From assembly GCF_025965585.1 (NCBI RefSeq), contig NZ_JAOPWR010000514.1:1-53424 (forward strand): DNA of 53,424 nt, in the 5' to 3' direction. Both the position numbers and the translations under genes were made by a program. Source of the stretch: Pseudonocardia sp. (GTDB taxonomy: Bacteria > Actinomycetota > Actinomycetes > Mycobacteriales > Pseudonocardiaceae). The notes below the pieces were generated by a model. It worked only from the letters and a program-made list of their open reading frames with translations, did not search any database and had not been told where the DNA came from. Below are positions 21,644 through 38,188 of this stretch, in pieces (positions within the stretch are counted from its first letter, which is position 1; every line of letters starts with the position of its first letter).

Positions 21644-21835
21644 CTACGCCAGCGAGATGGCGCGGACGGGGCAGGACCGCACGGCGTCCTGCACATCGGC
21701 GAGCACGGCATCCGGGGGCTCCTCGACGAGCAGCACTGCGACGCCCGATCGTTCGTCGAGATCGAACACGTCGGGAGCACTGAGAACGCAGGACGCGAAC
21801 CCCTCACACCTGTCGAGGTCGACCAGGACCTTCAT
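21644..21835 (-). CDS. [3Fe-4S]-type ferredoxin
   Basis: The 63-residue protein has CEGFASC (Cys-x5-Cys) near residues 10-16 and a distal CPVRAIS. The usual second cysteine of a four-cysteine cluster is missing, which is typical of [3Fe-4S] ferredoxins that serve P450s and actinobacterial Rieske dioxygenases. The ATG at 21835 follows AAGGAG. It is the last gene of the alpha-beta-X-ferredoxin operon, so it should donate electrons to the dioxygenase at 22.6-23.9 kb. A very similar ferredoxin occurs at 38.2 kb. Confidence 0.88.
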   Translation of the reverse strand: MKVLVDLDRCEGFASCVLSAPDVFDLDERSGVAVLLVEEPPDAVLADVQDAVRSCPVRAISLA

Positions 21836-21866
21836 GACCATCTCCTTCGCGACGAGCGGCTGCGGC

Positions 21867-22073
21867 TCACCCGCTGTCCTCCGCCGGGCCGAACGGATCA
21901 CTGAGCAGCCGGGCGTAGTCCTCGTCCGCCAGCCAGGTCAGGCTCTCCACCTGCAGCGGGTCGAGGTACACGGTGCGACCGGTGCGTGCGCTCCGGATCA
22001 TGAGACGGCTGCCGTTGGCGGACGTGTCGTGCGTGACCACGACCCGCGCGAACTCGTTGCCGAGGACGAGCAC
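21867..22073 (-). CDS. Small conserved dioxygenase-associated protein X (paralogue of the 37.1-kb gene)
   Basis: The product is about 68 residues and contains LGNEFARVVV, NGSRLMIRSARTG, LDPLQVESLTW and PFGP. The protein encoded at 37137-37406 shares all four blocks in the same order (LGNEFA, NGSRL, a PLxxExLTW block, PFGP). Both genes follow the beta subunit of a Rieske dioxygenase and precede a [3Fe-4S] ferredoxin. I do not recognise a characterised function; such small proteins are sometimes labelled dihydrodiol dehydrogenase in annotations, but they are far too short for an SDR. The start is uncertain; GTG at 22073 is used, and the homologue extends about 18 residues further at its N-terminus. 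Confidence 0.65.
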   Translation of the reverse strand: MLVLGNEFARVVVTHDTSANGSRLMIRSARTGRTVYLDPLQVESLTWLADEDYARLLSDPFGPAEDSG

Positions 22074-22098
22074 CTCGCCGCTGCGGTGCCCGTCGCCG

Positions 22099-22602
22099 TC
22101 AGAAGTAGATCGAGATGGCACGCGGCAGCACCCTGTGGTCGAGACGGATCGCCCGCTCGGTGATCCGGAACCCGTCCCCGACGCGGACGAGCCGGTCCTG
22201 CCGGCAACCGACGAAGAACTGTTCCGAAGCACCCCGGCGGGACTGGAAGACCAGCAGGTTCGACTCGACCCCGACGGCGCCGTCGTCGAACTCCGTGACG
22301 ATCACGTTGCTGATCATCCGGCGCGTCCGCGAGCGCGGCTGCTCGGCGTGGGCCAGCCCGCCGCTCAGGCGTTCGTGCCGCTTGATCAGGAAGCGCTTGT
22401 CCTCCTCGAACAACGCCCACTCCCCCGCCACCGGGCTCCGCTCCTGGCCGACCTCCCGGGACTCCGTGATCGGCATCCAGTACTTGGCGTCGTCGGTGAA
22501 CAGGTCGAGCCATTCCTCGTACCGGAACTCGTCGAGCAGCTTCGCCTCGCGGTAGAGGAACTGCTCGACCTCGCGCTGGGTGTCGCGGACCGTGGAGGTC
22601 AT
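22099..22602 (-). CDS. Aromatic ring-hydroxylating dioxygenase, beta subunit
   Basis: The 167-residue protein shows the beta-subunit pattern: VEQFLYREAKLLDEFRYEEW, LFTDDAKYWMPI, RRMISNVIVTEF and the ending VLPRAISIYF. It overlaps the alpha stop by 4 bp (ATGA). It pairs with the alpha subunit encoded at 22599-23924 and is followed by protein X and a [3Fe-4S] ferredoxin. Confidence 0.9.
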   Translation of the reverse strand: MTSTVRDTQREVEQFLYREAKLLDEFRYEEWLDLFTDDAKYWMPITESREVGQERSPVAGEWALFEEDKRFLIKRHERLSGGLAHAEQPRSRTRRMISNVIVTEFDDGAVGVESNLLVFQSRRGASEQFFVGCRQDRLVRVGDGFRITERAIRLDHRVLPRAISIYF

Positions 22603-23924
22603 GATCCTGCCTCCGTCATCAGTTCCGCCCAGTAGCGGTAGAAGTTGCGGTGGTTCTGCTCGGAGTAGTGCGGTCCCAGCTGCCCGGGCAGGGTGGGCTC
22701 GTCGATCTCGCCCTCGTGGCCCATGCCCATGGTGTAGTTGAAGTCCAGGGTGCGGGAGACCGCGCCGCGGGCCGACTCGGTGATCTTCTCGAAGTTCTCG
22801 CCGTCGTCCTGCCCGAAGATCCCGGCGGCGGCGTTCTCCTGCGACATCTGCGAGCGCGCGAAGTCCTTCACGTGCTGGGGCGCGCCGGTGTCGTAGAAGG
22901 TGGTCTGCCAGACCTCGAGCTCGCCGGGCCCCTTGGGATGCCACTGGTAGAGCCCGAGCACGTGGAAGCAGCCGAACTTGATCCACGAGAGGTTCGGGAA
23001 GATGTTGCCCTCGCCGAGGCCGTGCACCGCGGCCTGCTCCGGGCTGAGCCGCTCGGCGAGGCGGGCGTTGTAGGCCTGCACGTACTCGACCGCCTCGGGT
23101 CCGAAGTGCTCGGCCATCATCAGGTCGTTCTGCAGGCCGCGGCCCGGCTTGGGGATGTCGCCCATGCCGTGCCCGTGGGGGAAGTAGGCGATGTAGTCCG
23201 CGAGCGTGTCGTAGTCGGGCAGGAACCCGATCTGGAACGCCGAGCCGTGCGTGTAGAGCACGTGGTAGTCGTCGCCGGCGAAGTTCTCCGACGCGAGCTT
23301 CCAGTTGGCCGAGATCCGGTACTTCATCACCGGGCCGAGCACCTCCAACCCGCCCAACGCCCCCTCGATGGGCATGTCGAGGTACCAGAGCTGGTCGCGG
23401 CCGAGGTAGTCCACGAGGGACACCGCGCCCGCGTCCCAGTTGGCGAAGATGAAGCCCTTGTAGGACTCGACCCGGGGCACCTCGACGAGACCGAGCCGGG
23501 ACTTGTCGAGCTCGCCGCGGTAGGCGGCCTCGGTGCGCGGAACGCCCACCAGATCGCCGGTGGAGCTGTAGGTCCAGCCGTGGTAGGGGCACCGGAAGAA
23601 CTTCGCGTTCCCCTGGTCGGACGCGCACACGGTCATGCCGCGGTGCCGGCAGGAGTTGAGCAGGACGTGCAGCTCGCCGGCCGCGTCCCGGGTGGCGATC
23701 ACGGGGTCCTCGCCCATGAGGTTGGTGATGTAGTCGCCCGGGTTGCGCAGCTGGGACTCGTGGCCGATGTAGAGCCAGGTCCTGGTGAAGATCCTCTGCA
23801 GCTCCCGGTCGTAGACGGCGGGATCCCGGAAGATCTCCCGGCTGATCACACCGTCGTCGGGGCGCACGAGGTCGGCCGGATCTCGCGGCGACGTCGTCGT
23901 CGGTCGCGGGTCGATCATGGTCAT
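22599..23924 (-). CDS. Rieske aromatic ring-hydroxylating dioxygenase, alpha subunit
   Basis: The 441-residue protein has Rieske ligands Cys92/His94 (NSCRHRGM) and Cys112/His115 (CPYHGWTY) and the catalytic motif SENFAGDDYHVLYTHGS. QDDGENFEKI near residue 385 is in the region of the carboxylate ligand. The layout is that of heteromeric dioxygenases. GGAGGA lies 8 bases before the ATG at 23924; a second ATG two codons on is possible. A good promoter lies 64 bp upstream. Its [3Fe-4S] ferredoxin resembles those known for the phthalate and dibenzofuran/fluorene (Dbf) dioxygenases of actinobacteria, but the substrate is not identifiable here. Confidence 0.9.
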   Translation of the reverse strand: MTMIDPRPTTTSPRDPADLVRPDDGVISREIFRDPAVYDRELQRIFTRTWLYIGHESQLRNPGDYITNLMGEDPVIATRDAAGELHVLLNSCRHRGMTVCASDQGNAKFFRCPYHGWTYSSTGDLVGVPRTEAAYRGELDKSRLGLVEVPRVESYKGFIFANWDAGAVSLVDYLGRDQLWYLDMPIEGALGGLEVLGPVMKYRISANWKLASENFAGDDYHVLYTHGSAFQIGFLPDYDTLADYIAYFPHGHGMGDIPKPGRGLQNDLMMAEHFGPEAVEYVQAYNARLAERLSPEQAAVHGLGEGNIFPNLSWIKFGCFHVLGLYQWHPKGPGELEVWQTTFYDTGAPQHVKDFARSQMSQENAAAGIFGQDDGENFEKITESARGAVSRTLDFNYTMGMGHEGEIDEPTLPGQLGPHYSEQNHRNFYRYWAELMTEAGS

Positions 23925-23987
23925 CTCCGCAGTCCTCCATTCGGTACCGCTGGAGCTTTCTCTGCTCACCAGAAATAGCCTCTGACA

Positions 23988-24016
23988 AAACGTAGCCACG
24001 GCCCCGCCCATCGTCA
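23988..24016 (-). promoter_or_regulatory. Predicted promoter of the minus-strand dioxygenase operon
   Basis: On the minus strand TTGACG (24016-24011) and TACGTT (23993-23988) are separated by exactly 17 bp. This matches the housekeeping sigma-factor consensus well for an actinobacterium. Transcription would begin near 23981, giving a leader of about 57 nt with a GGAGGA site before the ATG at 23924. Confidence 0.6.
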
Positions 24017-24151
24017 AGGCTCCGTCCGCACCCCGTAGGTGCTAATGAATCCAAACTATATTGAGCATGGACTTTCCGAGTTTCGTAGATGTAGCGTCCC
24101 GCTCCACCGGACGCCGACCGGTCCCCACCCCGCACCGTCATGGGAGACGTC

Positions 24152-25645
24152 ATGCAACCCACGAGCGCCGAGTTGCGCACCGAGCTCCAGGTCCTGCTCA
24201 AGCGGGACTGGCGCATGCTCATCGGAGGGGAGCTGGTGCCCGCCGGTTCCGGCGAGACGATGACGACGTCGTCGCCGTCGGACGGCAGCGTCCTGGGCAC
24301 GGTCCCGCTCGCCGGTCCGTCCGATGTGGAGCGTGCGGTGCGGGCGGCGCAGGGGGCGTTCCCGGCCTGGCGCGACACCCCGTTGACCGAGCGCGTGGCG
24401 CTGCTGCGCCGGTTCGCCGGCGTACTGCAGGAGCACGCCCGTGAGCTCGGGCTGCTCGACGCCGCCGACTGCGGCAACCCGGTCACCGCGATGATCGGCG
24501 ACGTCGCCATGGCCACCCGCTGGATGGAGTACCAGACCGGCGTGGCGTTCGAGGTCAAGGGCTCGACGCTGCCGTCGCTGTCGCGCAGCTGGCTGCTGAC
24601 GCGCCGCGAGCCCTACGGCGTCGTCGGCCGGATCATCCCCTACAACCACCCGATCCTCTTCGCCGCCGGCAAGATCGGCGCACCGGTGGTCATGGGCAAC
24701 ACACTCGTGCTGAAGCTGCCCGACCAGGCCCCGCTCTCGGGCCTGCTGCTGGCCGAGCTCGCGGCCGAGGTCTTCCCGCCCGGCGTGCTCAACGTGATCA
24801 CCGGGACCGGCGCCGTCACCGGCGACGCCCTGGTGCGCCACCCCGAGGTCAAGCGGATCGCGCTCATCGGCAGCGTCCCGACCGGGCAACGCGTGCAGGC
24901 CGCCGCGGCCGAGGTGGCCGTCAAGCACGTCAGCCTGGAGCTCGGCGGCAAGAACGCCATGATCGTCTGCCCGGACGCCGATCTGGACGCCGTCGTCGAG
25001 GGCGCGGCGTTCGGGATGAACTGCCACTGGTGCCAGGGCCAGTCCTGCGGGTCCACCACCCGGCTGTTCCTGCACGACGACATCCACGACGAGGTGCTGG
25101 AGCGCCTCCTCGAGCGGCTGCGCACCATCCGGATCGGCGACCCGCTCGACCCGGCCACCGAGATGGGCTGCCTGGTGTCGGAGGCCCAGTTCGACAAGGT
25201 CACCTCCTACATCGCGGCCGGGCACGAGGACGGCGCGCGGCTGGTCACCGGCGGCGGCCGGCCCGAGGGGGCCGAGTTCGCCGACGGGTTCTTCGTGGCG
25301 CCCACCGTGTTCGCCGACGTCGACATGGGCATGCGCATCGCGAAGGAGGAGATCTTCGGCCCGGTGCTGTCCGTACTGCGCTGGAACGACCTCGACGACG
25401 TCGTCGCGCAGGCCAACTCGCTGCCCTACGGCCTCACCGGCGCGGTGTGGACGCGCGACATCCAGACCGGGCTGTCGGTCGCCGACCGCCTCGACACCGG
25501 CTACGTCTGGATCAACGGATCCGGCAGCCACTTCCTCGGCGCCCCCTTCTCCGGCCACAAGGACAGCGGCACGGACTCCGAGGAGGGCATCGAGGAGCTC
25601 ATCAGCTACACGCAGACGAAGACGGTCAACATCACCGTCCGGTGA
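24152..25645 (+). CDS. Aldehyde dehydrogenase family protein
   Basis: The 497-residue NAD(P)-dependent aldehyde dehydrogenase has the cofactor-binding block IIPYNHPILFAAGK, the general-base Glu in SLELGGKNAMI and the nucleophile Cys in QGQSCGST. EEIFGPVLSV and a C-terminal YTQTKTVNI follow. The ATG at 24152 has GGGAG just upstream; an ATG at 24140 adds four residues. It leads an operon with a zinc alcohol dehydrogenase and hydantoinase/carboxylase-like subunits. The preceding CHWC pair, before the active-site Cys, is seen in a subset of the family. The natural aldehyde is unknown. Confidence 0.9.
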   Translation: MQPTSAELRTELQVLLKRDWRMLIGGELVPAGSGETMTTSSPSDGSVLGTVPLAGPSDVERAVRAAQGAFPAWRDTPLTERVALLRRFAGVLQEHARELGLLDAADCGNPVTAMIGDVAMATRWMEYQTGVAFEVKGSTLPSLSRSWLLTRREPYGVVGRIIPYNHPILFAAGKIGAPVVMGNTLVLKLPDQAPLSGLLLAELAAEVFPPGVLNVITGTGAVTGDALVRHPEVKRIALIGSVPTGQRVQAAAAEVAVKHVSLELGGKNAMIVCPDADLDAVVEGAAFGMNCHWCQGQSCGSTTRLFLHDDIHDEVLERLLERLRTIRIGDPLDPATEMGCLVSEAQFDKVTSYIAAGHEDGARLVTGGGRPEGAEFADGFFVAPTVFADVDMGMRIAKEEIFGPVLSVLRWNDLDDVVAQANSLPYGLTGAVWTRDIQTGLSVADRLDTGYVWINGSGSHFLGAPFSGHKDSGTDSEEGIEELISYTQTKTVNITVR

Positions 25646-25671
25646 TCGAGCAGAACCCCGGAGGCCCGTCG

Positions 25672-26799
25672 ATGACCCAGTCGATGTCACTACCCACCCA
25701 CACCCAGGCCGCCGTCCTGGTGGACTACAACGCCCCGCCCGAGGTCCGGACGCTGCCGGTGCCCGATCTCGAACCCGGCGCGGCGCTGGTCAAGGTCGAG
25801 GCCAGCACCATGTGCGGCACCGACGTGCACATCTGGCGCGGCGAGTACGAGGCCGCCGGCCTGTCCAAGCTGCCGCTGGTGCCCGGCCACGAGATCGTCG
25901 GCCGCGTCGTGGCGCTGGGCAGCGAGCGCCGGGTCGACGCGCTCAACCGGCCGCTCGCCGAGGGCGACCTGGTCGCCTGGTCCTACGCCTGGTGCGGGCA
26001 CTGCTACTGGTGCACCGTCGCCAAGCAGCCGACCCAGTGCGAGAGCGCCCGGATGTACGGCTGGGGCCCGGCCGACCGGTCGCCCTACATCACCGGCGGC
26101 TTCTCCGAGTACGCCTACGTGATGCCGGCGTGCAGCATGGTCAAGGTGCCCGAGGGGCTCGACCCGGCGGTCGCCGCGTCGGCCACCTGCGCGTTCCGCA
26201 CGATCATCCACGGCTACGAGAAGATCGGCCGGATCGAGACCACCGACACCGTGGTGATCCAGGGCAGCGGCCCGGTGGGCCTCTACGCACTGGCCTACGC
26301 CGTCCAGTCCGGGGCGAGCCGCACGGTGATGATCGGCGCGCCCACCGCGCGCCTGGACATCGCCAAGCGCTGGGGCGCCGACGTTCAGCTCGACGTCACG
26401 AGCACCTCGGTCGAGGAGCGCCGCGAGCGCGTCCGGGACCTCACCGACGGCCGGGGCGCCGACCTCGTCGTCGAGTGCAGCGGGCGCAACGCCGCGTTCG
26501 TCGAGGGCATGGACCTGGTCCGCCGCGGCGGGCGATACCTGGTGCTGGGCGCGTCCGAGCCGAAGCCGGTGGAGATGCGCGCCACCTACCTGAACCTCCG
26601 GCAGCTCACCGTCGCCGGAACCATGAGCGGCGACATCTCGCACTACTACCGGGCCCTGCGCTTCCTCGACGACCACCAGGACCGCTTCTCCTTCGGCGAC
26701 CTGCTCGGCAACCGGTTCTCCCTCGACCAGGTCGGGGACGCGCTGCTCGGCATGGAGCAGATGCGCGAGATCAAGCCCGTGATCCTCCCGAACGCCTGA
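25672..26799 (+). CDS. Zinc-dependent medium-chain alcohol dehydrogenase
   Basis: The 375-residue MDR protein has the catalytic zinc ligands in TMCGTDVH and PGHEIVGRV and structural-zinc cysteines in WCGHCYWCTVAKQPTQC. The nucleotide-binding motif is VIQGSGPVGLYALAYA. The ATG at 25672 follows GGAGG. It lies between the aldehyde dehydrogenase gene and the HyuA-like gene. An alcohol-to-ketone oxidation that supplies a carboxylase or amide-hydrolase substrate would fit the order, but this is inference. Confidence 0.9.
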   Translation: MTQSMSLPTHTQAAVLVDYNAPPEVRTLPVPDLEPGAALVKVEASTMCGTDVHIWRGEYEAAGLSKLPLVPGHEIVGRVVALGSERRVDALNRPLAEGDLVAWSYAWCGHCYWCTVAKQPTQCESARMYGWGPADRSPYITGGFSEYAYVMPACSMVKVPEGLDPAVAASATCAFRTIIHGYEKIGRIETTDTVVIQGSGPVGLYALAYAVQSGASRTVMIGAPTARLDIAKRWGADVQLDVTSTSVEERRERVRDLTDGRGADLVVECSGRNAAFVEGMDLVRRGGRYLVLGASEPKPVEMRATYLNLRQLTVAGTMSGDISHYYRALRFLDDHQDRFSFGDLLGNRFSLDQVGDALLGMEQMREIKPVILPNA

Positions 26800-26833
26800 C
26801 GCCACCCCCACCACCTCACCTGGAGGAACCCCC

Positions 26834-28933
26834 GTGCCCTACGTCATCGGTATCGATGTCGGAGGGACCTTCACCGATGCGTTCGCTGCCGACGACAGCG
26901 GCCGCGTCCACTCCGCGAAGGTTCCGTCCACCCCGCCCGACTTCTCCCGCGGCGTGCTCAGCTCCGTCGACGCGCTCGCCGAGAACATCGGCTGCGACGT
27001 CGGGGAGCTGCTCGCCGACACCGCCTACATCTCGCACGGCACGACGTCGGCGCTCAACGCGCTGGTCACGGGCAACGTGGCCGAGGTCGGCTTCATCACC
27101 ACGCAGGGCCACCGCGACTCGATCTACATCATGAACCTGGAGGGCCGCTACGCCGGCCTGGGTCCCGAGGAGATCCAGGACATCACGGCCACGCGCAAGC
27201 CGCCGCCGCTGCTGCCCAAGCGGCGGGTCAAGGAGGCCGTCGAGCGGATCGACCACAAGGGCTCGGTGATCGTCGCGCTCGACGAGGACGCCACCCGGCG
27301 GTCGATCCGCGAGCTCCTCGACGACGGCGCCACGGCCATCGCCGTCTCGCTGTTGTGGTCCTTCCGCAACCCGGTGCACGAGAAGCGGATCCGCGAGCTC
27401 GTGCACGAGATCGCCCCGGACACCTACGTGGCGCTGTCGTGCGAGGTCAGCCCGCGGATCCGGGAGTACCCCCGCAACGTCACCACGCTGATGAGCACCC
27501 AGATCGGCCCGGCGCTGCGCGACTACCTCGAGCCGCTCTCGCGCGACCTCACCGAACGCGGCCTGCGCGGGCCGCTGCTGGTCATGCAGGGCTCCGGCGG
27601 CACCGTCTCCGCGCAGGAGGCCCCGGCCAACGCGATCACCACGATCGGCTCGGTGCTCACCGGCGGCGTGATCGGCGCCCGCAACCTCGGCCGGCAGCTC
27701 GGCCACGAGAACATCATCTCTACCGACGTCGGCGGCACCACGTTCCTCGTCGGCATGATCGTCGGCGGCGAGCCGGTGTTCAGCTCGATGACCACGCTCA
27801 ACCAGTACCAGCTCAACGTGGCGATGATGAAGGTCGCCACGATCGGCAGCGGCGGCGGCGCGATCGCCTGGCTCGACGACGGCAAGAACCTGCGCGTCGG
27901 CCCGCGCAGCGCCGGGGCCTCCCCCGGGCCGGCCTGCTACGGGCAGGGCGGCACCGAGCCGACCGTCACCGACGCCAACCTCGTGTTGGGCATCCTCAAC
28001 CCGGGCTTCTTCCTGGGTGGCACCAAGAAGCTCGACGTCGAGCTGGCCCGCGAGGCGCTGCGCAAGAACATCGGCGACCCGCTCGGCCTCACCGCCGAGG
28101 AGGCCGCCGCCGCGGTCTACGAGATCCAGAACTCCCAGACCGCCGACCTCGTGCGCACGGTCGTCGTCGGCGCCGGGCACGACCCCCGCGACTTCGTCAT
28201 GTACGCCTTCGGCGGCGCCGGCCCGGTGCACTGCGCGGCCTACGGCGCGGAGCTGGGCGTACAGGAGATCCTCGTGCCGCTGGGCCAGACCGCGGCCACG
28301 TTCTCCGCCTACGGCCTGGCGTCGTCCGACGTCGTGCTGTCGGTGGAGCTCTCGGACCCGTCGAACTTCCCCGTGGACCCCGCCGTGGTGGACCGCAACT
28401 TCACCGAACTGGAGGAGGAGGTCCGCCGCCGGCTCGCCGCCCAGGGCGTGGAGTACGCCGACATCACGGTCACCCGCGAGGTCGACGCCCGCTACACGAT
28501 GCAGATCTTCGAGGTGCCCACACCGGTGGCGCAGGGCACGGTCGACGACACGGCCGTCAAGCAGATCGCCGACGACTTCGAGGAGCGCTACGCCTCGCTC
28601 TACGGCAAGGGCACCGGCTTCCGCGAGGCCGGCATCCAGTTCATCACCTACCGCGTCTTCGGCACCGGACGCATGCCGTTCAAGCCCGAGCTCCCGAAGG
28701 CGGTGACGGCCGACGGCGGCAGCACTCCCCCGGTCAAGGAGCGGCGCCGGGCGCTGCTCGACATCCGCGCCGGCTGGCAGGAGGTGGACGTCTACGACTA
28801 CTCCCGCCTCGGCCTCGGCAGCGCGCTGACCGGCCCGGCGATCGTGGAGGCCCCGACCACCACCGTCGTCGTCCCCCCCGGTACCTCGGCCGTCGTCGAC
28901 GGGCTGGGCAACCTCCGCATCCGCTACCAGTAG
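26834..28933 (+). CDS. HyuA-family subunit (hydantoinase/oxoprolinase; acetone or acetophenone carboxylase-like)
   Basis: The 699-residue protein begins with the acetate/sugar-kinase-like phosphate loop YVIGIDVGGTFTD and contains YISHGTTSALNALV, the PRIREYPRNVTT segment, VMQGSGGTVS and STDVGGTTFL. This is the ATP-using A subunit of the hydantoinase/oxoprolinase family, which includes N-methylhydantoinase, 5-oxoprolinase and the ATP-dependent acetone and acetophenone carboxylases. GGAGGA precedes the GTG at 26834. With HyuB and a small Cys-rich subunit following directly, a three-subunit ketone-carboxylase-like complex is the best guess; hydantoin or lactam hydrolysis is the alternative. Confidence 0.85.
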   Translation: MPYVIGIDVGGTFTDAFAADDSGRVHSAKVPSTPPDFSRGVLSSVDALAENIGCDVGELLADTAYISHGTTSALNALVTGNVAEVGFITTQGHRDSIYIMNLEGRYAGLGPEEIQDITATRKPPPLLPKRRVKEAVERIDHKGSVIVALDEDATRRSIRELLDDGATAIAVSLLWSFRNPVHEKRIRELVHEIAPDTYVALSCEVSPRIREYPRNVTTLMSTQIGPALRDYLEPLSRDLTERGLRGPLLVMQGSGGTVSAQEAPANAITTIGSVLTGGVIGARNLGRQLGHENIISTDVGGTTFLVGMIVGGEPVFSSMTTLNQYQLNVAMMKVATIGSGGGAIAWLDDGKNLRVGPRSAGASPGPACYGQGGTEPTVTDANLVLGILNPGFFLGGTKKLDVELAREALRKNIGDPLGLTAEEAAAAVYEIQNSQTADLVRTVVVGAGHDPRDFVMYAFGGAGPVHCAAYGAELGVQEILVPLGQTAATFSAYGLASSDVVLSVELSDPSNFPVDPAVVDRNFTELEEEVRRRLAAQGVEYADITVTREVDARYTMQIFEVPTPVAQGTVDDTAVKQIADDFEERYASLYGKGTGFREAGIQFITYRVFGTGRMPFKPELPKAVTADGGSTPPVKERRRALLDIRAGWQEVDVYDYSRLGLGSALTGPAIVEAPTTTVVVPPGTSAVVDGLGNLRIRYQ

Positions 28934-28942
28934 GAGCTGACC

Positions 28943-30922: not shown

Positions 30923-31185
30923 CACTGGACACGAGACGGGTCAACGCGAACGTCGCCCGCAGCGCGGCCGGGGTCCTGTCCTGCGCGCACTGCCGTCAGG
31001 AGCTCGAGGGCACCGCGGAGAACTACCTGACGCTCCTGCCCCACTACGAGGGGCCCGTCACCGACGCCGGACCGCAGGTCTGCGCGGACACTGCCGAGTT
31101 CATCGACGTCGAGATCGTCTTCCGCCAGTACTACTGCCCCGGCTGCTACACGGCCTTCCGCACCGAGGTCGTGCCGCGGGTGTGA
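30919..31185 (+). CDS. Small Cys-rich third subunit (acetone-carboxylase gamma-like)
   Basis: The 88-residue protein overlaps the HyuB stop by 4 bp and contains CAHC near residues 23-26 and YCPGC near residues 74-78, with another Cys between them. It resembles the metal-binding small (gamma) subunit of acetone carboxylases and the small subunit found with acetophenone-carboxylase-type enzymes. Ordinary hydantoinases lack such a subunit, so its presence favours the carboxylase interpretation for this operon. It is shorter than the acetone-carboxylase gamma subunit, so a divergent relative is likely. Confidence 0.6.
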   Translation: MTLDTRRVNANVARSAAGVLSCAHCRQELEGTAENYLTLLPHYEGPVTDAGPQVCADTAEFIDVEIVFRQYYCPGCYTAFRTEVVPRV

Positions 31186-31191
31186 GCCGCA

Positions 31192-31224
31192 GGCGGCCCG
31201 GGCCCTGTGCGGACCCGGGCCGCC
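31192..31224 (+). terminator. GC-rich hairpin after the HyuAB operon
   Basis: GGCGGCCCGGG at 31192-31202 and CCCGGGCCGCC at 31214-31224 form a perfect 11-bp stem with an 11-nt loop, 6 bp after the last stop codon of the plus-strand operon. There is no clear T-run, which is common for actinobacterial terminators. Confidence 0.65.
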
Positions 31225-31300
31225 CCGGCGTGCGGCGAATGCGGTCCCGACGCCGCGATCCCTGACGACGCAGTCACCTCACGACCAGCCAGGAGGTGAC

Positions 31301-31337
31301 GCCGGACCCGGGCGCCGACGACGCTCCCGGGTCCGGC
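31301..31337 (-). terminator. GC-rich hairpin after the RutA-like operon
   Basis: GCCGGACCCGGG at 31301-31312 and CCCGGGTCCGGC at 31326-31337 form a perfect 12-bp stem with a 13-nt loop. It lies 21 bp beyond the stop of the minus-strand hydrolase gene, so it is placed to end that operon. It forms a back-to-back pair with the hairpin at 31192-31224. Confidence 0.65.
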
Positions 31338-31358
31338 GAGGCCACCGCCAGGCGGGGC

Positions 31359-32270
31359 TCAGGCGCCCAGGAACCCGATCACCAGGTTGTTGAACACCTC
31401 CGGACGATCGCGGAAGACCTGGTGGCCCGCGCGATTGATCACGCACATCGTGCAGTTCGCCGTCCGACCCGCCAGGACGTCGAAGAACTGGTGGCCGAGC
31501 TCGACGGGCGCGGAGCGGTCGTCCTTGCCCCACACGACGAGCACCGGGACGTCGAGACCCGGACCCTGCAGGTGGTCGAGAACCCGTTTCCGGGCGCGTC
31601 CCAGGCTGGGGATCCAGTGCCGGGCGCTGCTACGGGCGTAGACCTCGACCGACTCCTTGTGGTGCGCACCGTTCATCATCTCCGCGGCGATGCGGAGGTA
31701 CTCGGGGCTCAGCGGCCCCTCGGTCACCGCCTGGGCGGCGTGGTAATGGCTGATCACACCCTCCGCTCCGGCGTTCTTCGGCGCCGTGCGCTCGACCTCG
31801 TCGTAGAAGCCCATGTCGGACCGACCCGGCGGAGCGGGAGCGGTCGAGGCACTCGACACGACGACGAGCCGGCTGACCCGGCCCGGCAGCTCCATCGCCA
31901 GCCGGGTGGCGAGCAGGCCGCCGCGGGAGTGACCGACCAGGGTCATGTCGGTCAGGTCCAGCTGCTCGAGGAACCCGACGGCGTGGTCCAGGACGCTCTC
32001 GAACGTCCACTGCTCGTCCGAGGCCGGGATGTCGGTGAAGCCCTGCCCGAGCTTGTCGAAGGCCACCACCCGCCCGTGCGCGGACAGGGCGTCGACGGTC
32101 TCGCTCCAGACCTCGATGCCCATCGGCACGAAGATCCCGAAATGGCCGCCGTGCACGAGCACGATGGGATGCCCGGGCCCGGCATCCGGTACACCGGTGT
32201 CCAGATAGCGGGTCCTCACCCCGGAGACCGTGATGTGTCGGACGTGATCGGGGTTCAGCGGTTCGCTCAC
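31359..32270 (-). CDS. Alpha/beta hydrolase in the RutA-like operon
   Basis: The 303-residue protein has VLVHGGHFGIF near residue 32, nucleophile elbow GHSRGG, acid in WGKDDRSAPVE and His in RAGHQVFRD. The GTG at 32270 overlaps the flavin reductase stop by 4 bp. In the E. coli pyrimidine (Rut) pathway a hydrolase-fold protein, RutD, also accompanies the RutA monooxygenase, but this protein is not clearly RutD. It may hydrolyse an acyl or ring-opened product of the flavin monooxygenase. Confidence 0.82.
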   Translation of the reverse strand: MSEPLNPDHVRHITVSGVRTRYLDTGVPDAGPGHPIVLVHGGHFGIFVPMGIEVWSETVDALSAHGRVVAFDKLGQGFTDIPASDEQWTFESVLDHAVGFLEQLDLTDMTLVGHSRGGLLATRLAMELPGRVSRLVVVSSASTAPAPPGRSDMGFYDEVERTAPKNAGAEGVISHYHAAQAVTEGPLSPEYLRIAAEMMNGAHHKESVEVYARSSARHWIPSLGRARKRVLDHLQGPGLDVPVLVVWGKDDRSAPVELGHQFFDVLAGRTANCTMCVINRAGHQVFRDRPEVFNNLVIGFLGA

Positions 32271-32800
32271 GACGAGCTGCCTCTCAATACGGTGCGGCGG
32301 ATGGCATCGCCCGACTCGGCCACCCACCGGGCGACGGTCGGGCCGAGGTCGTCGAGCTCGTCTTCCAGGACGTACAGGCCCCGGGTCGGAAGGACACCAC
32401 CGAGCTCGACGAGCAATGGCCTCAGGTACGTCTCGACCGCGAGCGCGTGGTGCGCGGCCGCGCCCACCATCACCGGCGCGACCACCACACCCCGCAGGCT
32501 CGTGCGGTCGAACCACTCGAGGAACGCCTTGAGCAGCGCTGTGTAGGTGGCCTTGAAGACCGGGGAGGCGACCACCACGACCGACGCGCTCGAGACCCGG
32601 CCCACCAGCTCGGCCACCCGGGCCGAGGAACGGTCGAACAGCTCGCCGCCGAGCGTCCCCAGCTCGACCGAGTCCGGTTCTGCGCCCTCCGGCCAGCCGA
32701 GAAGCGCGACGACCTGGCGCGCGACCTCGTCGGCCGCCGCACTGGTCCGGGACCCGGCTCTGGGGTTGCCGACGACGGTCAGCACACGGAACGGCTCCAT
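32267..32800 (-). CDS. NAD(P)H-dependent FMN reductase (SsuE/MsuE-like)
   Basis: The 177-residue flavodoxin-fold protein begins VLTVVGNPRAGSRTS, the flavin-phosphate loop of the NADPH-dependent FMN reductase family, and has VVVVASPVFKATYTALLKAF, the second flavin-binding region. Such reductases supply reduced FMN to two-component monooxygenases. It lies 5 bp after the RutA-like gene and overlaps the hydrolase start, so it is the obvious partner of that monooxygenase. Confidence 0.88.
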   Translation of the reverse strand: MEPFRVLTVVGNPRAGSRTSAAADEVARQVVALLGWPEGAEPDSVELGTLGGELFDRSSARVAELVGRVSSASVVVVASPVFKATYTALLKAFLEWFDRTSLRGVVVAPVMVGAAAHHALAVETYLRPLLVELGGVLPTRGLYVLEDELDDLGPTVARWVAESGDAIRRTVLRGSSS

Positions 32801-32805
32801 CCCGG

Positions 32806-33855
32806 TCAGCTGCCGGCCAGGAGCGGCATGACCTCGCGGCCGAAGCGGTCGACGTCGGTCAGGTAGTCCTGGAACGACAGCATGACACCCGCCGTTCCCG
32901 CCACCGCACCGAAGGAACGCAGCTTCTCGGCGACCGTCGCCGCGTCGCCGAGTACGAGCGGGAACGAGATCATGAACGCGTCGGACCCCAGCATCAGGTT
33001 CTTGGTGGACTCCTCGTTCTCCGTGAGGTCCTCCTGTGCGATCCCCATGAGGTTCGTGACCGCGGGGAAGTCCATGTTCGCTCGCCAGTTCGCCACGACG
33101 TCCTCGGCCTCGGCGACGCTGTCGCGCAGCACGACCTGGAACAGCGGGAAGGTGCCCACCTCGCGGCCGGCCCGGTCGGCCTGGGCCTGGAGCCGGGCGT
33201 TCTGCGCCGCCAGGCTCTCGACGTCGGGCTTGCCCACCACGAACTGGTAGTCGCCCACCTCGGCGCAGAACTGCATGCCGCGGTCGGACTGCCCGGCGCA
33301 CACCAGCTCGATCGGAGCCTCCGGAAGGGGGCCGAGGCGGCAGTCGTCCATCCGGAAGTACTGGCCCTCGAAATCACTCTGTCCCTTCGACCAGAGCTCG
33401 CGCATGACCCGGACGTACTCGTCCGCGTGGTCGTAGCGGGTCCGGAAGTGCTGGTCTCCGGGCCACAGACCCATCTGCGTGTACTCGGGCTTCTCCCATC
33501 CGGTGACGATGTTGAGCCCGAAGCGCCCACCCGACATGTCGGAGATGGTGGCTGCCTGCTTGGCCGCGAGAACCGGCGGCGTGAGCAGCGTGGCGATCGA
33601 TCCGAAGAGCTTGATGCGCCGGGTCGTGACGGCGAGGCCCGCCATCACCGAGAGCGAGTCGAGGGCGTGGTTCCACGGGCTGGTGTCGCCGTCGAACCCG
33701 CGGAACTTCACCGCCGACAGGAGGAAGTCGAACCCGTAGTGCTCCGCCTTGGTCGCGGCCTGTGAGGCCAGGAACCACTCGGGCACGGAGGCGGGCGAGG
33801 TGTTGGAGAACACCCAGTTCTTGTTCATGGTGGGCATGAACATGCCGATCCGCAT
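32806..33855 (-). CDS. RutA-like flavin-dependent monooxygenase (LLM class)
   Basis: The 349-residue protein resembles pyrimidine oxygenase RutA over its whole length. Matching blocks are KAEHYGFDFLLSAVKFRGF, SIATLLTPPVLAAKQAAT, SGGRFGLNIVTGWEKPEY, MGLWPGD and ICAGQSD-like VCAGQSDRGM. The Thr in the ATLLTPP block and the Asn in GLNIVTGW match residues implicated in RutA's flavin-N5-peroxide chemistry. AGAGGAG precedes the ATG at 33855. Unlike the rut operon, no rutB, rutC or rutF is adjacent; instead there is an FMN reductase and a hydrolase. An amide-, ring N-containing or halogenated aromatic substrate is possible. Confidence 0.85.
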   Translation of the reverse strand: MRIGMFMPTMNKNWVFSNTSPASVPEWFLASQAATKAEHYGFDFLLSAVKFRGFDGDTSPWNHALDSLSVMAGLAVTTRRIKLFGSIATLLTPPVLAAKQAATISDMSGGRFGLNIVTGWEKPEYTQMGLWPGDQHFRTRYDHADEYVRVMRELWSKGQSDFEGQYFRMDDCRLGPLPEAPIELVCAGQSDRGMQFCAEVGDYQFVVGKPDVESLAAQNARLQAQADRAGREVGTFPLFQVVLRDSVAEAEDVVANWRANMDFPAVTNLMGIAQEDLTENEESTKNLMLGSDAFMISFPLVLGDAATVAEKLRSFGAVAGTAGVMLSFQDYLTDVDRFGREVMPLLAGS

Positions 33856-33970
33856 GATCGCTCCTCTTGTGAGTCCGGCCACCGGGCCGATGACGCGACG
33901 CTATAAACGCGAGCCGGGGGCAGCTATGCGGTTCGCGTCGCGCGCGCACCGGAATGCGCCACACCGCCGG

Positions 33971-34981
33971 TCAGCGCGTGCGGCGCAGGGTTTCCGACGG
34001 GGCGATGCCGTACCGGCGCCGGTAGGCTGCGGCGAACCGGCCCAGGTGACCGAACCCCCAGCGATGGGCGATCGCGGTGGTCGTCGTCCGGTCCGGATCC
34101 GCATCGACGAGATCCCCGTGCGCCCGCGCCATCCGCACGTCCTGCAGGTAGGTCATCGGCGACATGCCCAGCTCCCGGCCGAAGCCCGCCTGCAGGGCAC
34201 GGAGGCTCACACCCGCGTGGGCCGCCAGGTCGCCCGCCGAGTACGGCTCCTCCGGGCTCGCCTGCACGAGGTCCACGACCTGCCGTACCGCGCGCGAGCG
34301 GACGACCTCCGCGGGCCGGTGGAGAGCCTCGGAGTGGGTGTGGGAGTGGGCGAACAGCAGCGTGGTCACGAGCAGCCGGGAGAAGTACGCACCGGCCAGC
34401 GGCTGGTGGATCACGCTCTCGGGCCGCTCCATCTCGGCGAGCACGAGGTGCAGTGTGGCCAGCCAGCTACCGCCCGCTCCGCCGGCCACGTCCATTCCCA
34501 GGTCGAACTGGACCGGCGCCGCCGGCCGCCCCAGGATGGCTTCGAGCTCGGTCTGCAACGCGGCCCGATCGAGCTTGACCGCCAGTTGGGCGCAGTCGGC
34601 CGACCAGCGGATGGTCATCGGCCGTCCGGGGCTGAACACCGCGGCACGGGCGGGAGAACTGATGATCGAGTCCTTGCCGCTGGTCGACTCGGTGAAGCCC
34701 TGCCGCGGCAGGTTGATGTGGTAGCAGGACACGAGCGGCGCCGGGATCATCCGGATCTCCGTGCCGTAGCGCAGGTAACCCACGGTCGTGTCACCGACCG
34801 CAGCCGCGTTCAGCACGGCCCGCAGCGGTTGGCCTCGCTCGAGGACGATCGTCTGGTGCGGCGCGTAGACCCGTGGTACGACCTCGCGCACCTCGTCGAG
34901 CGCCGAGCTGTGCACGATGGCGTGGGCGGACAACGGCTCCGCATCACGGTACCGGTGGCGTGTGCCCTGTCGACCGCTCAT
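33971..34981 (-). CDS. AraC-family transcriptional regulator
   Basis: The 336-residue protein ends in a double helix-turn-helix AraC domain: YSAGDLAAHAGVSLRALQAGF, LGMSPMTYLQDVRMARAH, then AIAHRWGFGHLGRFAAAYR and YGIAPSETL. The N-terminal two-thirds is an AraC-binding-like domain with a PGRPMTIRWSADCAQLAVKLD segment. The ATG at 34981 is used; an ATG at 34993 is possible. It lies upstream of the RutA-like operon on the same strand and is divergent from the phthalate operon, so it could control either or both. Confidence 0.9.
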   Translation of the reverse strand: MSGRQGTRHRYRDAEPLSAHAIVHSSALDEVREVVPRVYAPHQTIVLERGQPLRAVLNAAAVGDTTVGYLRYGTEIRMIPAPLVSCYHINLPRQGFTESTSGKDSIISSPARAAVFSPGRPMTIRWSADCAQLAVKLDRAALQTELEAILGRPAAPVQFDLGMDVAGGAGGSWLATLHLVLAEMERPESVIHQPLAGAYFSRLLVTTLLFAHSHTHSEALHRPAEVVRSRAVRQVVDLVQASPEEPYSAGDLAAHAGVSLRALQAGFGRELGMSPMTYLQDVRMARAHGDLVDADPDRTTTTAIAHRWGFGHLGRFAAAYRRRYGIAPSETLRRTR

Positions 34982-35139
34982 CACTCTCCGCATGACAGAG
35001 GTGTTCTCTGGCGCATGTGTAAGGCCGGCAGCTCGGTCTGTCAAATGACCCCGGCCCCACCGCCGGATCGACCAGCCGTGCCGACCGGTTCGCTTGACTA
35101 GACGCGGCCGCTTTGAGAGCCTCTTCAGAACGGATTGCT

Positions 35140-35156
35140 TCTCTGTTGAGCAGAGA
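35140..35156. promoter_or_regulatory. Inverted repeat upstream of the phthalate operon; candidate operator
   Basis: TCTCTG (35140-35145) and CAGAGA (35151-35156) form a perfect 6-bp inverted repeat with a 5-bp spacer, 35 bp before the ATG at 35192. A TTGACT lies at 35093-35098 but no convincing -10 box follows at 17 bp. The repeat could be an operator or a leader hairpin. Confidence 0.4.
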
Positions 35157-35191
35157 CGACATGACCACGTCCAGACCTGCCGGGAGCCGCA

Positions 35192-36568
35192 ATGACCGAT
35201 CGATCGTCCGTCCTCGACGAGGTGCGGCGCGGGATGATCCCGGCACACATCTACAACGACGAGGAGATCTTCCGGCTGGAGAGGGAGCGGCTGTTCAGCC
35301 GGGCCTGGATCTTCGTCGGCCACGAGTCGGAGGTGCCGCAGCCCGGCGACTACGTGGTACGCCGGGTGCTGGAGGACTCGTTCATCGTCTCGCGCGGCGA
35401 GGACGGCGCGGTTCGCGCGCTGTTCAACATGTGTCTGCACCGCGGGATGCAGGTGTGCCGTGCCGAGGCCGGCAACGCCTCGCACTTCCGGTGCCCGTAC
35501 CACGGCTGGTCCTACCGCAACGACGGCCGCATCGTCGGCCTGCCCTTCCACCAGGAGGCGTACGGCGGCGAGGCCGGTTTCCGGCGCAAGGGCCAGACGC
35601 TCCTGCCCGCCCCGTCGCTGGACACCTACAACGGGCTGATCTTCATCAGCCTGGATCCCGCCGCTCCCCCGCTGCGGGAGTACCTCGGCGACTTCGCGTT
35701 CTACCTGGACTTCTACACCAAGCAGTCGGCGGCCGGCATCGAGCTGCGCGGACCGCAGCGGTGGCGGATCAAGGCGAACTGGAAGATCGGCGCGGAGAAC
35801 TTCGCGGGCGACATGTACCACACGCCGCAGACCCACACCTCCGTCGTGGAGATCGGGCTGTTCCGCGAGCCCAAGGCCGAGAAGCGCAAGGACGGCTGCA
35901 CCTACTGGGCCGGCAACGGCGGCGGCACCACCTACAAGCTGCCGGTGGGCACGTTCGAGGAGAAGCTGCGCTACGTCGGCTACCCGGACTCCATGATCGC
36001 GAACATGCGGGAGAACTGGTCGGTCGAGCAGCAGGCGGTGGTCGAGGACAACGCCTTCATGATCTCCGCGGCGTCGGTGTTCCCGAACATGAGCTTCGTG
36101 CACAATTGGCCCAAGGTGGAGGAGCACGGGGACGCCGTGCTGCCGTTCATCTCCATCCGCACCTGGCAGCCCGTCAGCGCAGACGAGACCGAGGTGCTGA
36201 GCTGGTTCGCCGTGGACGCTCAGGCGCCCGAGGAGTTCAAGGCGCTGTCCTACAAGGCCTACCTGATGTGCTTCGGCAGCACCGGCATGTTCGAGCAGGA
36301 CGACGTCGAGAACTGGGTGTCGCTCACCAACACCGCGGCCGGGTCGATGGCGCGGCGGCTGCTGCTCAACAGCCGCATGGGGCTGCTCGAGGACGGCTCG
36401 CACGTCGTGCCCCGGCTGGACGGCACTCAGTTCGCCGGGCCGGGCGAGGCCTACGTCGGCTACGGCGAGTACAACCAGCGCCACCTGCTCAACCGCTGGG
36501 CCGACCACCTGGAGAAACCGCCGGCCGACGTCGCGCAGGTCGAGGTCGGCGGGCAGGTGACCGGGTGA
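35192..36568 (+). CDS. phtAa: Phthalate 3,4-dioxygenase-like Rieske oxygenase, alpha subunit
   Basis: The 458-residue protein has Rieske ligands Cys81/His83 (NMCLHRGM) and Cys101/His104 (CPYHGWSY) and the catalytic segment GAENFAGDMYHTPQTHTS. EQDDVENW near residue 370 is in the carboxylate-ligand region. The gene order that follows (beta, X, SDR, [3Fe-4S] ferredoxin, reductase, class II aldolase-like decarboxylase) is that of actinobacterial phthalate 3,4-dioxygenase clusters, which is the main reason for the name. GGGAG precedes the ATG at 35192. Another aromatic dicarboxylate is not excluded. Confidence 0.75.
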   Translation: MTDRSSVLDEVRRGMIPAHIYNDEEIFRLERERLFSRAWIFVGHESEVPQPGDYVVRRVLEDSFIVSRGEDGAVRALFNMCLHRGMQVCRAEAGNASHFRCPYHGWSYRNDGRIVGLPFHQEAYGGEAGFRRKGQTLLPAPSLDTYNGLIFISLDPAAPPLREYLGDFAFYLDFYTKQSAAGIELRGPQRWRIKANWKIGAENFAGDMYHTPQTHTSVVEIGLFREPKAEKRKDGCTYWAGNGGGTTYKLPVGTFEEKLRYVGYPDSMIANMRENWSVEQQAVVEDNAFMISAASVFPNMSFVHNWPKVEEHGDAVLPFISIRTWQPVSADETEVLSWFAVDAQAPEEFKALSYKAYLMCFGSTGMFEQDDVENWVSLTNTAAGSMARRLLLNSRMGLLEDGSHVVPRLDGTQFAGPGEAYVGYGEYNQRHLLNRWADHLEKPPADVAQVEVGGQVTG

Positions 36569-37140
36569 GCACGCACTCGTCTCGCTCGGTGCTGGGCGCG
36601 CACGCGCCGACGACCCAGCGGACCGGGCGCACGCTGCCCTTCTCCGACGAGCGCCACCTGCAGGCCCACCAGTGGCTGGTCGACGAGGCCTACATCCTGG
36701 ACTCCCAGGCCTACGACGAGTGGCTCGACCTGCTCACCGACGACATCCACTACCTCATGCCGGTGCGGGTGACCACGGCGCTCGGCGCCGGCTACGACAC
36801 CTCGCCGGGCATGGCCCACTTCGACGAGAACCGCTACTCACTGGGCCGGCGGGTGGCACGCTTCCTCACCGAGCACGCATGGACCGAGGACCCGCCCTCG
36901 CGGCTGCGGCACTACGTGGCCAACGTCCGCACCTTCGCCACCGACGACCCGGACCACGTCGTCGTCGACTCCGGGGTGATGCTCTACCGCAGCCGCGGCG
37001 ACGTCCGCGAGGCCGCGGTGCTCTCGGCGGGCCGGGAGGATCTGCTGCGGCGCACCGGCGACGGTTGGCGGCTCGCGCGGCGCACGATCCTGCTCGACGA
37101 CTCGGTGGTCCGCAGCCAGAACCTGGCGATCTTCCTGTGA
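36565..37140 (+). CDS. phtAb: Phthalate 3,4-dioxygenase-like beta subunit
   Basis: The 191-residue protein has the beta-subunit pattern AHQWLVDEAYILDSQAYDEW, LLTDDIHYLMPV, LRHYVANVRTF and the ending VVRSQNLAIFL. It is about 25 residues longer at its N-terminus than the beta subunits at 14.5 and 22.1 kb, as expected for the phthalate 3,4-dioxygenase type. The GTG start overlaps the alpha stop by 4 bp. Confidence 0.8.
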   Translation: MSTHSSRSVLGAHAPTTQRTGRTLPFSDERHLQAHQWLVDEAYILDSQAYDEWLDLLTDDIHYLMPVRVTTALGAGYDTSPGMAHFDENRYSLGRRVARFLTEHAWTEDPPSRLRHYVANVRTFATDDPDHVVVDSGVMLYRSRGDVREAAVLSAGREDLLRRTGDGWRLARRTILLDDSVVRSQNLAIFL

Positions 37141-37406
37141 GCGGGGACGCCGCCGAGCAGTACCGCGCGCTGGTGGAGCACCGCACCGGCGAGGCGATCC
37201 AGCTCGGCAACGAGTTCGCCGAGATCCGGGTGTCGCGGGTGGAGACGCGCAACGGCTCGCGGCTCCTCATCGAGTCGCCGAGGTCCGGGCAGTGGGTCTC
37301 GCTGTGCCCGCTGGAGCTGGAGGCCCTGACCTGGCAGAACACGGCCACGTTCTCGGCGATGATCGGCAACCCGTTCGGCCCGCTGGTGACGGACGAGGAA
37401 CCGTGA
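37137..37406 (+). CDS. Small conserved dioxygenase-associated protein X (paralogue of the 21.9-kb gene)
   Basis: The 89-residue protein overlaps the beta stop by 4 bp and the SDR start by 4 bp, so it is firmly part of the operon. It contains LGNEFAEIRV, NGSRLLIESPRSG, PLELEALTW and PFGP. The protein encoded at 21867-22073 has these blocks in the same order and is also found immediately after a dioxygenase beta subunit. It has no cofactor motif, no cysteine cluster and no membrane segment. A structural or regulatory role for the dioxygenase, or a role in dihydrodiol handling, is inference only. Confidence 0.78.
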   Translation: MSGDAAEQYRALVEHRTGEAIQLGNEFAEIRVSRVETRNGSRLLIESPRSGQWVSLCPLELEALTWQNTATFSAMIGNPFGPLVTDEEP

Positions 37407-38188
37407 CGGGCTGGCTCGAGGGGAAGCGGGCGCTGGTCGTCGGGGCGGGCTCGGGCATCGGGCGGGCGGTGGTGGACGCGTTCCGGTCCGAGGGCGCGCA
37501 GGTGGCCGTCCTGGAGCGCGACGCCGCCAAGTGCGCCGCGCTGGCCGCGGCGCGGCCCGAGGTGCCCGTGGTGACCGGCGACGCCACCACCCGCGGCGCC
37601 AACGACGAGGCCGTGGCCGCCGCCGTCGACGCGTTCGGCGGGCTGGACGTACTGGTCAACTGCGTGGGCGTCTTCGACTTCTACCGGGGCATCGCCGACC
37701 TCGACGCCGACCGCATCGACGACGCGTTCGACGAGATGTTCGCGGTCAACGTCAAGTCGCACCTGCACGCGGTGAAGGCGGCGCTGCCCGCGCTGCGGGA
37801 GTCCGGGGGCAACGTCGTGCTCACCGAGTCGACGTCGGCCTACTACCCGGGCCGCGGCGGGGTGCTCTACGTCGGCTCCAAGTTCGCGGTGCGCGGGCTC
37901 GTCACCGCGCTGGCGCACGAGCTGGCGCCGCACATCCGCGTCAACGGGGTCGCCCCCGGCGGCACGCTGCACACCGACCTGCGCGGCCTGTCCAGCCTCG
38001 GGATGGACGCGCAGCGGCTCGACGACACCCCCGACCGCGCAGCCGCCCTCGCCGCCCGGGTGCCGCTGCAGGTCGCGCTGGACGGCACCGACCACGCCTG
38101 GAGCTACGTGTACCTGGCGTCCGACCGTGCCCGCGGTATCACCGGCGGGGTCGTGCATCCCGACGGGGGCATGGGTGTGAAGGCGTGA
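37403..38188 (+). CDS. phtB: SDR-family cis-dihydrodiol dehydrogenase (phthalate 3,4-dihydrodiol type)
   Basis: The 261-residue SDR has the NAD-binding motif VVGAGSGIG, VNCVGVFD in place of the common NNAG, a catalytic Ser in ESTSAYYP and the Tyr/Lys pair in YVGSKFAV. The C-terminal SDRARGITGGVVHPDGG is the usual SDR ending. BphB/NahB-type dihydrodiol dehydrogenases belong to this group. The GTG overlaps the previous stop by 4 bp. In the pathway it would re-aromatise the dihydrodiol to 3,4-dihydroxyphthalate. Confidence 0.8.
   Translation: MTGWLEGKRALVVGAGSGIGRAVVDAFRSEGAQVAVLERDAAKCAALAAARPEVPVVTGDATTRGANDEAVAAAVDAFGGLDVLVNCVGVFDFYRGIADLDADRIDDAFDEMFAVNVKSHLHAVKAALPALRESGGNVVLTESTSAYYPGRGGVLYVGSKFAVRGLVTALAHELAPHIRVNGVAPGGTLHTDLRGLSSLGMDAQRLDDTPDRAAALAARVPLQVALDGTDHAWSYVYLASDRARGITGGVVHPDGGMGVKA

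Follow-up and report, generated by a model that had tools for sequence, protein, structure and literature searches.

A small gene, here called X, was found directly behind the beta subunit gene in two of the three alpha-beta Rieske dioxygenase operons on a contig of Pseudonocardia sp. (NZ_JAOPWR010000514.1 of assembly GCF_025965585.1). The window, i.e., the whole stretch of DNA analyzed, comprises 53,424 nucleotides. The presence of X follows the lineage of the oxygenase subunits, and its place behind the beta gene is kept across phyla and in archaea. On the best reading, X is not a docking factor specific for [3Fe-4S] ferredoxins. We propose, with somewhat less than even confidence, that X is a putative dimeric partner of the alpha-beta oxygenase, either an assembly factor or a small subunit, that is inherited together with alpha and beta.

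A preliminary description of this DNA had reported that the two X proteins, X1 and X2, are related and take the same place in two operons with [3Fe-4S] ferredoxins, and that the third operon, with a Rieske ferredoxin, lacks X. It had suggested that X is tied to the [3Fe-4S] type, perhaps as an assembly or docking factor. The genes concerned are the following:

21867..22121, minus strand: X1, small acidic protein of the PhtU family (84 amino acids from GTG 22121; 68 amino acids from GTG 22073)
22099..22602, minus strand: beta subunit of operon 1 (PF00866)
22599..24017, minus strand: alpha subunit of operon 1 (Rieske and Ring_hydroxyl_A domains; 5' end uncertain)
21644..21841, minus strand: [3Fe-4S]-type ferredoxin of operon 1 (CX5C...C, CEGFASC; Fer4_15/Fer4_13)
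35192..36568, plus strand: alpha subunit of operon 2 (80% identity to the alpha subunit of the Arthrobacter keyseri plasmid operon)
36565..37140, plus strand: beta subunit of operon 2 (PF00866)
37137..37406, plus strand: X2, PhtU family, 89 amino acids (GTGA overlap with the beta stop; AlphaFold model)
37403..38188, plus strand: short-chain dehydrogenase of operon 2 (PF00106)
38215..38421, plus strand: [3Fe-4S]-type ferredoxin of operon 2 (CX5C...C, CQGYANC; Fer4_15/Fer4_13)
38456..39685, plus strand: flavin adenine dinucleotide (FAD) ferredoxin reductase of operon 2 (Pyr_redox_2, Reductase_C)
13161..14513, plus strand: alpha subunit of operon 3, the comparison operon without X (profile match)
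14516..15007, plus strand: beta subunit of operon 3, no X behind it (profile match; downstream scan)
17771..18121, plus strand: Rieske-type ferredoxin downstream of operon 3 (Pfam/NCBIfam search)

The reported relationship was borne out. X1 and X2 are identical at 28 of 62 positions (45%; E 2e-20 for the pair), the motifs LGNEFA, NGSRL, PLxxExLTW and PFGP are common to both, and an X profile finds both proteins, which places them in the same family. Each gene lies directly behind a beta gene (PF00866). Both operons hold a ferredoxin that is assigned to the [3Fe-4S] type by its CX5C...C motif and Fer4_15/Fer4_13 matches, an assignment from sequence and not from a measured cluster; according to the accessible text of Kweon 2008, CX5CXnC marks the [3Fe-4S] ferredoxins of these enzymes. 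Behind the beta gene of operon 3, a scan of up to 1.5 kb in the 3' direction gave nothing below E 0.4, in agreement with the reported absence of X.

Operon 1 reads alpha, beta, X1 and ferredoxin on the minus strand, and its beta start overlaps the alpha stop (ATGA). Operon 2 reads alpha, beta, X2, short-chain dehydrogenase, ferredoxin and FAD reductase on the plus strand, with GTGA stop-start overlaps chaining alpha to beta, beta to X2 and X2 to the dehydrogenase. X1 probably starts at the in-frame upstream GTG 22121 rather than at 22073: the 68-residue form is probably too short, since the upstream start gives 84 amino acids and an overlap of about 20 nucleotides with the 3' end of beta, including its stop. 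The preliminary description named no strand for X1; the plus strand of 21867-22073 was also considered and gave no sensible reading, and only the minus strand reads. No reductase match was obtained near operon 1 in a profile scan of the locus, and such genes may lie elsewhere. The Rieske ferredoxin at 17771-18121 lies 4.0 kb from the beta gene of operon 1 as well, on the opposite strand, and was not counted for operon 1. It is flanked by a LigB-type ring-cleavage dioxygenase gene at 16812-17774 (Pfam) and by a frame at 18118-19044 that is similar by eye.

X2 is 69% identical to an open reading frame (ORF) behind beta in an A. keyseri plasmid and 54% identical to an ORF of the RHA1 plasmid pRHL2. 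The gene order of operon 2 equals that of the pRHL2 operon (alpha, beta, X, dehydrogenase, ferredoxin, reductase), which we take to be the pad operon. A Pseudonocardia metagenome-assembled genome, OFTM178, encodes X2 at 100% identity. The ORF behind beta in phthalate operons has been named phtU and given an "unknown function" in the accessible parts of PMC10134610, PMC10434107 and PMC4964388; X2 corresponds to this ORF. The A. keyseri cluster is said to lack phtU in the text accessible from PMC10134610, and the record of plasmid pRE1 shows an X ORF behind beta there (L008, 7950-8288). The 80% identity of the alpha subunits suggests phthalate as the substrate of operon 2.

Neither Pfam nor NCBIfam gave a significant model for X1 or X2, nor did Pfam for 47 X members, and sequence search returned no significant match to a solved structure. 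A set of 396 actinobacterial genomes contained 28 with X and 35 with beta. Since 27 of the 28 genomes with X also hold beta, the association is more than chance. The lone genome with X and no beta has the weakest match (G178:C10:7560-7685, L127; E 5e-4), which lies inside a frame of 613 amino acids and is probably a chance match. Over all loci then in the set, near-copies included, 181 of 189 X copies lie within -100 to +400 bp of the stop of a beta gene on the same strand. The genome that contains the window holds two further X copies, on contigs C500 (L129) and C395 (L128). The copy on C500 lies behind a beta gene; the one on C395 lies upstream of an alpha-beta pair, not behind beta, and beside a frame that by eye is thiolase-like.

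Phyla other than Actinomycetota were sampled through plasmid records only. At least 57 such records carry X, from Rhodococcus, Arthrobacter, other actinobacteria, Thermus, Thermomicrobium, Geobacillus and haloarchaea. In the records opened from Thermus, Thermomicrobium and Geobacillus, and in four haloarchaeal ones, X comes after alpha and beta, with no ferredoxin annotated in the part displayed. Pseudomonads and sphingomonads are missing from the 57 plasmid matches listed for X, though the beta query finds plasmids of Novosphingobium (15), Pseudomonas (14) and Sphingobium (7).

The distribution of X on a tree of the alpha subunits (136 of 161 alpha rows, near-copies dropped) requires only 9-10 changes, compared with about 45 in shuffles; X is therefore a lineage trait. 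In one clade of 58 rows, which includes the A. keyseri enzyme, X is present in 54. The four rows without X are L210 (on a long branch), the beta-before-alpha locus in L138, the alpha-before-beta locus in L239, and L139, which lies at a contig edge. X recurs in two other deep alpha clades, where L204 is the only row with a [3Fe-4S] ferredoxin in its vicinity. Operon 1 and a near relative are the sole X-bearing members of a group of 19 alpha rows, in which Rieske as well as [3Fe-4S] systems are represented.

Sequence distances gave a similar picture. In 46 operons with all parts, X distances correlated with those of alpha (r 0.88), beta (0.88), ferredoxin (0.74) and reductase (0.57); in 110 X-bearing operons, the correlation with alpha and with beta was 0.91. 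The deep split of the alpha tree between the main clade and the rest reappears in the X tree, with a Shimodaira-Hasegawa-like approximate likelihood ratio test (SH-aLRT) value of 80 from few columns. At 88 of 138 distinct beta-X junctions, the genes share a 4-nucleotide NTGA overlap, as fits products of one complex that are made in step. No beta-X fusion was present among the loci then in the set. A frame shared by X and alpha in L038 is an open stop-to-stop frame and was not taken as a fusion.

A survey of X against ferredoxin type covered 107 actinobacterial genomes with 162 distinct beta loci, the window included; X and both ferredoxin types were scored by profiles built in this work. A ferredoxin was counted if it was encoded on the same strand within 5 kb of beta. 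X was present in 23 and absent from 9 of the loci with a [3Fe-4S] ferredoxin, present in none and absent from 13 of those with a Rieske ferredoxin (Fisher p 6.8e-6 between these two classes, raw and with kinship ignored), and present in 50 (46 directly behind beta, 4 near it) and absent from 67 of those with neither. X therefore does not occur equally often with Rieske systems. In this sample, X is always absent where a Rieske ferredoxin was counted, while a [3Fe-4S] ferredoxin does not guarantee that X is present. The nine [3Fe-4S] loci without X are L137, L210, L234, L236, L237, L238, L239, L241 and L245, and in several of them ferredoxin and reductase precede alpha.

These counts have to be read with the sampling in mind. 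Among the matches listed in an order-wide search, all rows below the top group were taken, and 23 of the 49 best-scoring rows. These 23 rows have nearly all no ferredoxin nearby and are, by guess, of the benzoate type; with only 23 of the 49 sampled, the class that has no ferredoxin in the 5-kb range probably understates the share of X-less loci. Only three phylogenetically independent ferredoxin contrasts were available, two or three of them in the direction of the preliminary description and none against it, which is too few to decide on a tie between ferredoxin and X. Relatedness may explain most of the correlation. According to the accessible text of Kweon 2008, these oxygenases frequently draw on shared ferredoxins whose genes lie at other sites. 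A locus with no ferredoxin gene nearby may therefore still use the [3Fe-4S] type, a caveat in favor of the preliminary description. Weak "Rieske ferredoxin" matches beside seven X loci turned out to lie in a larger protein that carries a Rieske domain at its C terminus, and they were not counted as ferredoxins. In L100, L108, L111, L224, L225, L227 and L240, such a protein is encoded divergently to the X operon, about 2.1-2.3 kb from beta on the opposite strand. The one in L108 is a DUF2231 membrane protein by Pfam. This divergent protein could be an electron donor, or unrelated.

In 150 distinct X proteins, the best-kept positions include N23, E24, F25, G38, R40, L41, L54, E60, L62 and W64 (87-99%; numbering of the X2 segment). 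The proteins are acidic, with a median isoelectric point (pI) of 4.8 and a net charge of -4. There is no conserved cysteine, and a metal cluster in X appears unlikely because 80 of the 150 contain no cysteine at all. The model of X2 (predicted local distance difference test score, pLDDT, 86.9) consists of a helix, four strands and two helices, and that of X1 (pLDDT 81.9) shows the same strands. Foldseek placed PUR-alpha chains at or near the top for both. With a second aligner, X2 matched PUR repeats at Z 5.1-5.4 (Z 5.4 over 43 residues), and X1 matched PUR and PC4 chains at Z 4.5-5.9 within its first eleven rows (best Z 5.9 over 62 residues). For X1, PC4 chains ranked just below the PUR repeats. 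The modelled fold of X thus weakly resembles that of PUR and PC4 proteins, a likeness that does not reveal a function. No PUR or PC4 Pfam model matched the 47 X members at E values up to 10, a search in which the HMMER filters drop weak matches. A similarity to CsrA was considered and set aside: the profile similarity is short (35 columns), and the Pfam matches, in 8 of 47 members with a best E value of 0.0045, are too weak for the size of the search. Aligned with PF02599 by hhalign, X scored 20.6, compared with at most 18.45 in 100 column shuffles, at a probability of 17%; CsrA was not among the structure-match rows listed.

Tandem forms were also found. Nine X-X frames stand behind beta, of which haloarchaea contribute four and actinobacterial genomes five. 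The N-terminal copy lacks NEF and the C-terminal copy keeps NEF or NEY in every one of them, and eight of the nine C-terminal copies end in PxGP. Two X domains behind beta occur in L112, L113, L119, L120, L121, L126 and L153-L156, within one frame in nine of these ten and as separate frames in L121. As judged from these sequences, the tandem forms suggest a two-domain unit. PUR repeats occur singly and in tandem and pair up, which makes a dimer of X a fair expectation.

The proposed role may be outlined as follows. X would be made in step with beta and would fold into a compact acidic PUR/PC4-like domain of four strands and a helix that probably acts as a dimer. It would bind alpha-beta, most likely through the near-invariant NEF turn between strands 1 and 2 and the C-terminal PxGP stretch, and would help the alpha-beta hexamer to assemble or to stay stable, as a dedicated assembly factor or a small third subunit. 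A more specific version is offered more tentatively: X could be an overlooked third component of many alpha-beta Rieske oxygenases, retained in several bacterial phyla and in haloarchaea. In this version, a nucleic-acid-type PUR/PC4 fold would have become an acidic dimer that binds protein and either assembles the hexamer or completes it, with one working NEF/PxGP face per dimer, as suggested by the tandem forms.

Several observations weigh against this proposal. X is missing from 89 of the 162 beta loci; 85 of these have at least 400 bp seen downstream, the other four, L139 among them, have less than 400 bp behind beta in the scanned stretch and were kept in the set, and a scan for X up to 1.5 kb 3' of all 89 beta genes gave nothing below E 0.4. 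In 4 of the 162 loci, X is near but not directly behind beta. On the Rhodococcus pyridinivorans YF3 plasmid (L157), X lies about 8 kb from beta, next to an annotated carbon-nitrogen hydrolase and a protocatechuate 3,4-dioxygenase. When the other parts were held fixed, the distance correlation of X was 0.36 with alpha, 0.03 with beta, -0.13 with ferredoxin and 0.36 with reductase; such partial correlations are unstable, were used as a hint only, and do not single out beta. The structural matches are weak, with no Foldseek E value below 1e-3 and Z under 6 throughout. In addition, two thermophile enzymes were active in E. coli and after purification as alpha and beta with PhtAcAd or PhdCD, with no further operon gene named in the accessible part of PMC11176777. 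An X-like partner is thus not strictly needed for these two enzymes, in whose native operons the presence of X was not checked. For the naphthalene enzyme of Geobacillus JF8, a 3-kb alpha and beta fragment, expressed in E. coli in the absence of an added ferredoxin, yielded no product, and the authors guess "not appropriately expressed" (PMC7023095, accessible part). The accessible part mentions no gene similar to X, and the fragment may or may not have contained one, so this failure cannot be ascribed to X.

The docking of a [3Fe-4S] ferredoxin on the oxygenase with the aid of X, as the preliminary description had put forward, is unlikely; it ranks second to an assembly role, level with a regulator in the style of PUR/PC4 proteins. 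The 0 of 13 Rieske loci with X, as against 23 of 32 [3Fe-4S] loci, speak for docking, and the three independent contrasts agree with it or are neutral. It is opposed by the 9 of 32 [3Fe-4S] loci that lack X and by the 50 of 117 loci that have X with no ferredoxin in 5 kb, as well as by the X-ferredoxin distance correlation, which is below that of X with alpha and turns negative with the other parts held fixed. The loci in L135 and L138, which we take to be nid loci from their beta-alpha order, lack X. NidAB works with PhtAc/PhtAd in the accessible account of Kweon 2008, a further point against docking. Of the two roles suggested for X, assembly stays a candidate, and docking to [3Fe-4S] ferredoxins has become less likely. 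Slightly less probable still is the idea that X serves a separate purpose with no bearing on the oxygenase protein and only travels with the alpha/beta lineage. Strong clustering on the alpha tree would fit it, as would some X genes that lie 2-4 kb from beta; it accounts poorly for one position with a stop-start overlap kept across phyla and archaea and for X in 54 of the 58 rows of the main clade.

Many proteins with a PUR/PC4 fold bind single-stranded nucleic acid as regulators, and X might regulate its operon in this way. This, too, is improbable, to the same degree as docking. It is favored by PUR-alpha and PC4 chains as the closest structural neighbors and by a weak CsrA-like signal; the acidity of X, as calculated from its sequences, speaks against binding of single-stranded nucleic acid. 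X is, moreover, fixed behind beta across very different operons, several of which have regulators of their own (IclR, GntR) annotated nearby. Least probable of all, and by our estimate very much so, is a pathway protein that handles the substrate or the dihydrodiol. It is favored by the label "dihydrodiol dehydrogenase", which is attached to X in L009 5190-5444 (WP_126177925.1) and in one Rhodococcus record. The label was probably carried over from a neighboring gene and is contradicted by the small size of X and the separate dehydrogenase gene behind it. Only about 65 residues are conserved, no dehydrogenase model is among the Pfam matches of X1, X2 or the 47 X members, and a full-length dehydrogenase (hcaB) follows X in several loci, just as the short-chain dehydrogenase is a separate gene in operon 2. 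A partner of alpha-beta that aids assembly or stability remains the preferred reading of X.

Rieske dioxygenases serve pollutant breakdown and the production of chiral diols. In the work of at least one group, the alpha and beta genes of such enzymes were expressed alongside a ferredoxin and a reductase from other systems (PMC11176777, accessible part). If X does help assembly or stability, adding X would be a cheap fix for expression, and the phtU ORF would gain a testable role. No paper that treats X as a family or assigns it a role was found in the accessible text of the open-access literature. The accessible part of one 2025 review does not mention an accessory, chaperone or third-subunit component for Rieske oxygenases, and nothing on X was among the papers listed in searches of the chaperone literature. 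Already known is phtU as an ORF without a function; new is the family as a proposed extra conserved component of Rieske oxygenases.

Compared with known systems, X shares with PUR and PC4 proteins (PDB 5fgo, 8chw, 8cht, 3k44, 3nm7 and 1pcf) the predicted order of four strands and a helix over about 60 residues, and both occur in single and tandem forms. It differs from them in its acidity, an identity of 5-24% in the PUR and PC4 rows, Z scores of only 5-6 and the lack of a Pfam match. Type V Rieske oxygenases use a [3Fe-4S] ferredoxin and a GR-type reductase in the accessible text of Kweon 2008, and operon 2 has both parts by sequence motif and domain. The A. keyseri enzyme and an RHA1 enzyme, taken to be pad, belong to the main alpha clade with X, and the same text lists them with these two partners. 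In operon 1, the ferredoxin motif is present and alpha lies outside the A. keyseri clade. Some likely type V relatives, presumed from the nid gene order, lack X. Outside the main clade, X is present in operon 1 and in two further alpha lineages. PhtU of the phtBAaAbUAcAdCR operons occupies the same place behind the beta gene as X. On a contig of Mycobacterium sp. MBM (L031; strain matched by name), X lies between beta and the [3Fe-4S] ferredoxin, as the accessible part of PMC10134610 says of phtU. In the printed accounts accessible here, PhtU is one ORF of the pht operons, whereas X is a family represented in no fewer than three alpha lineages, in several phyla and in the haloarchaea, and it includes tandem forms.

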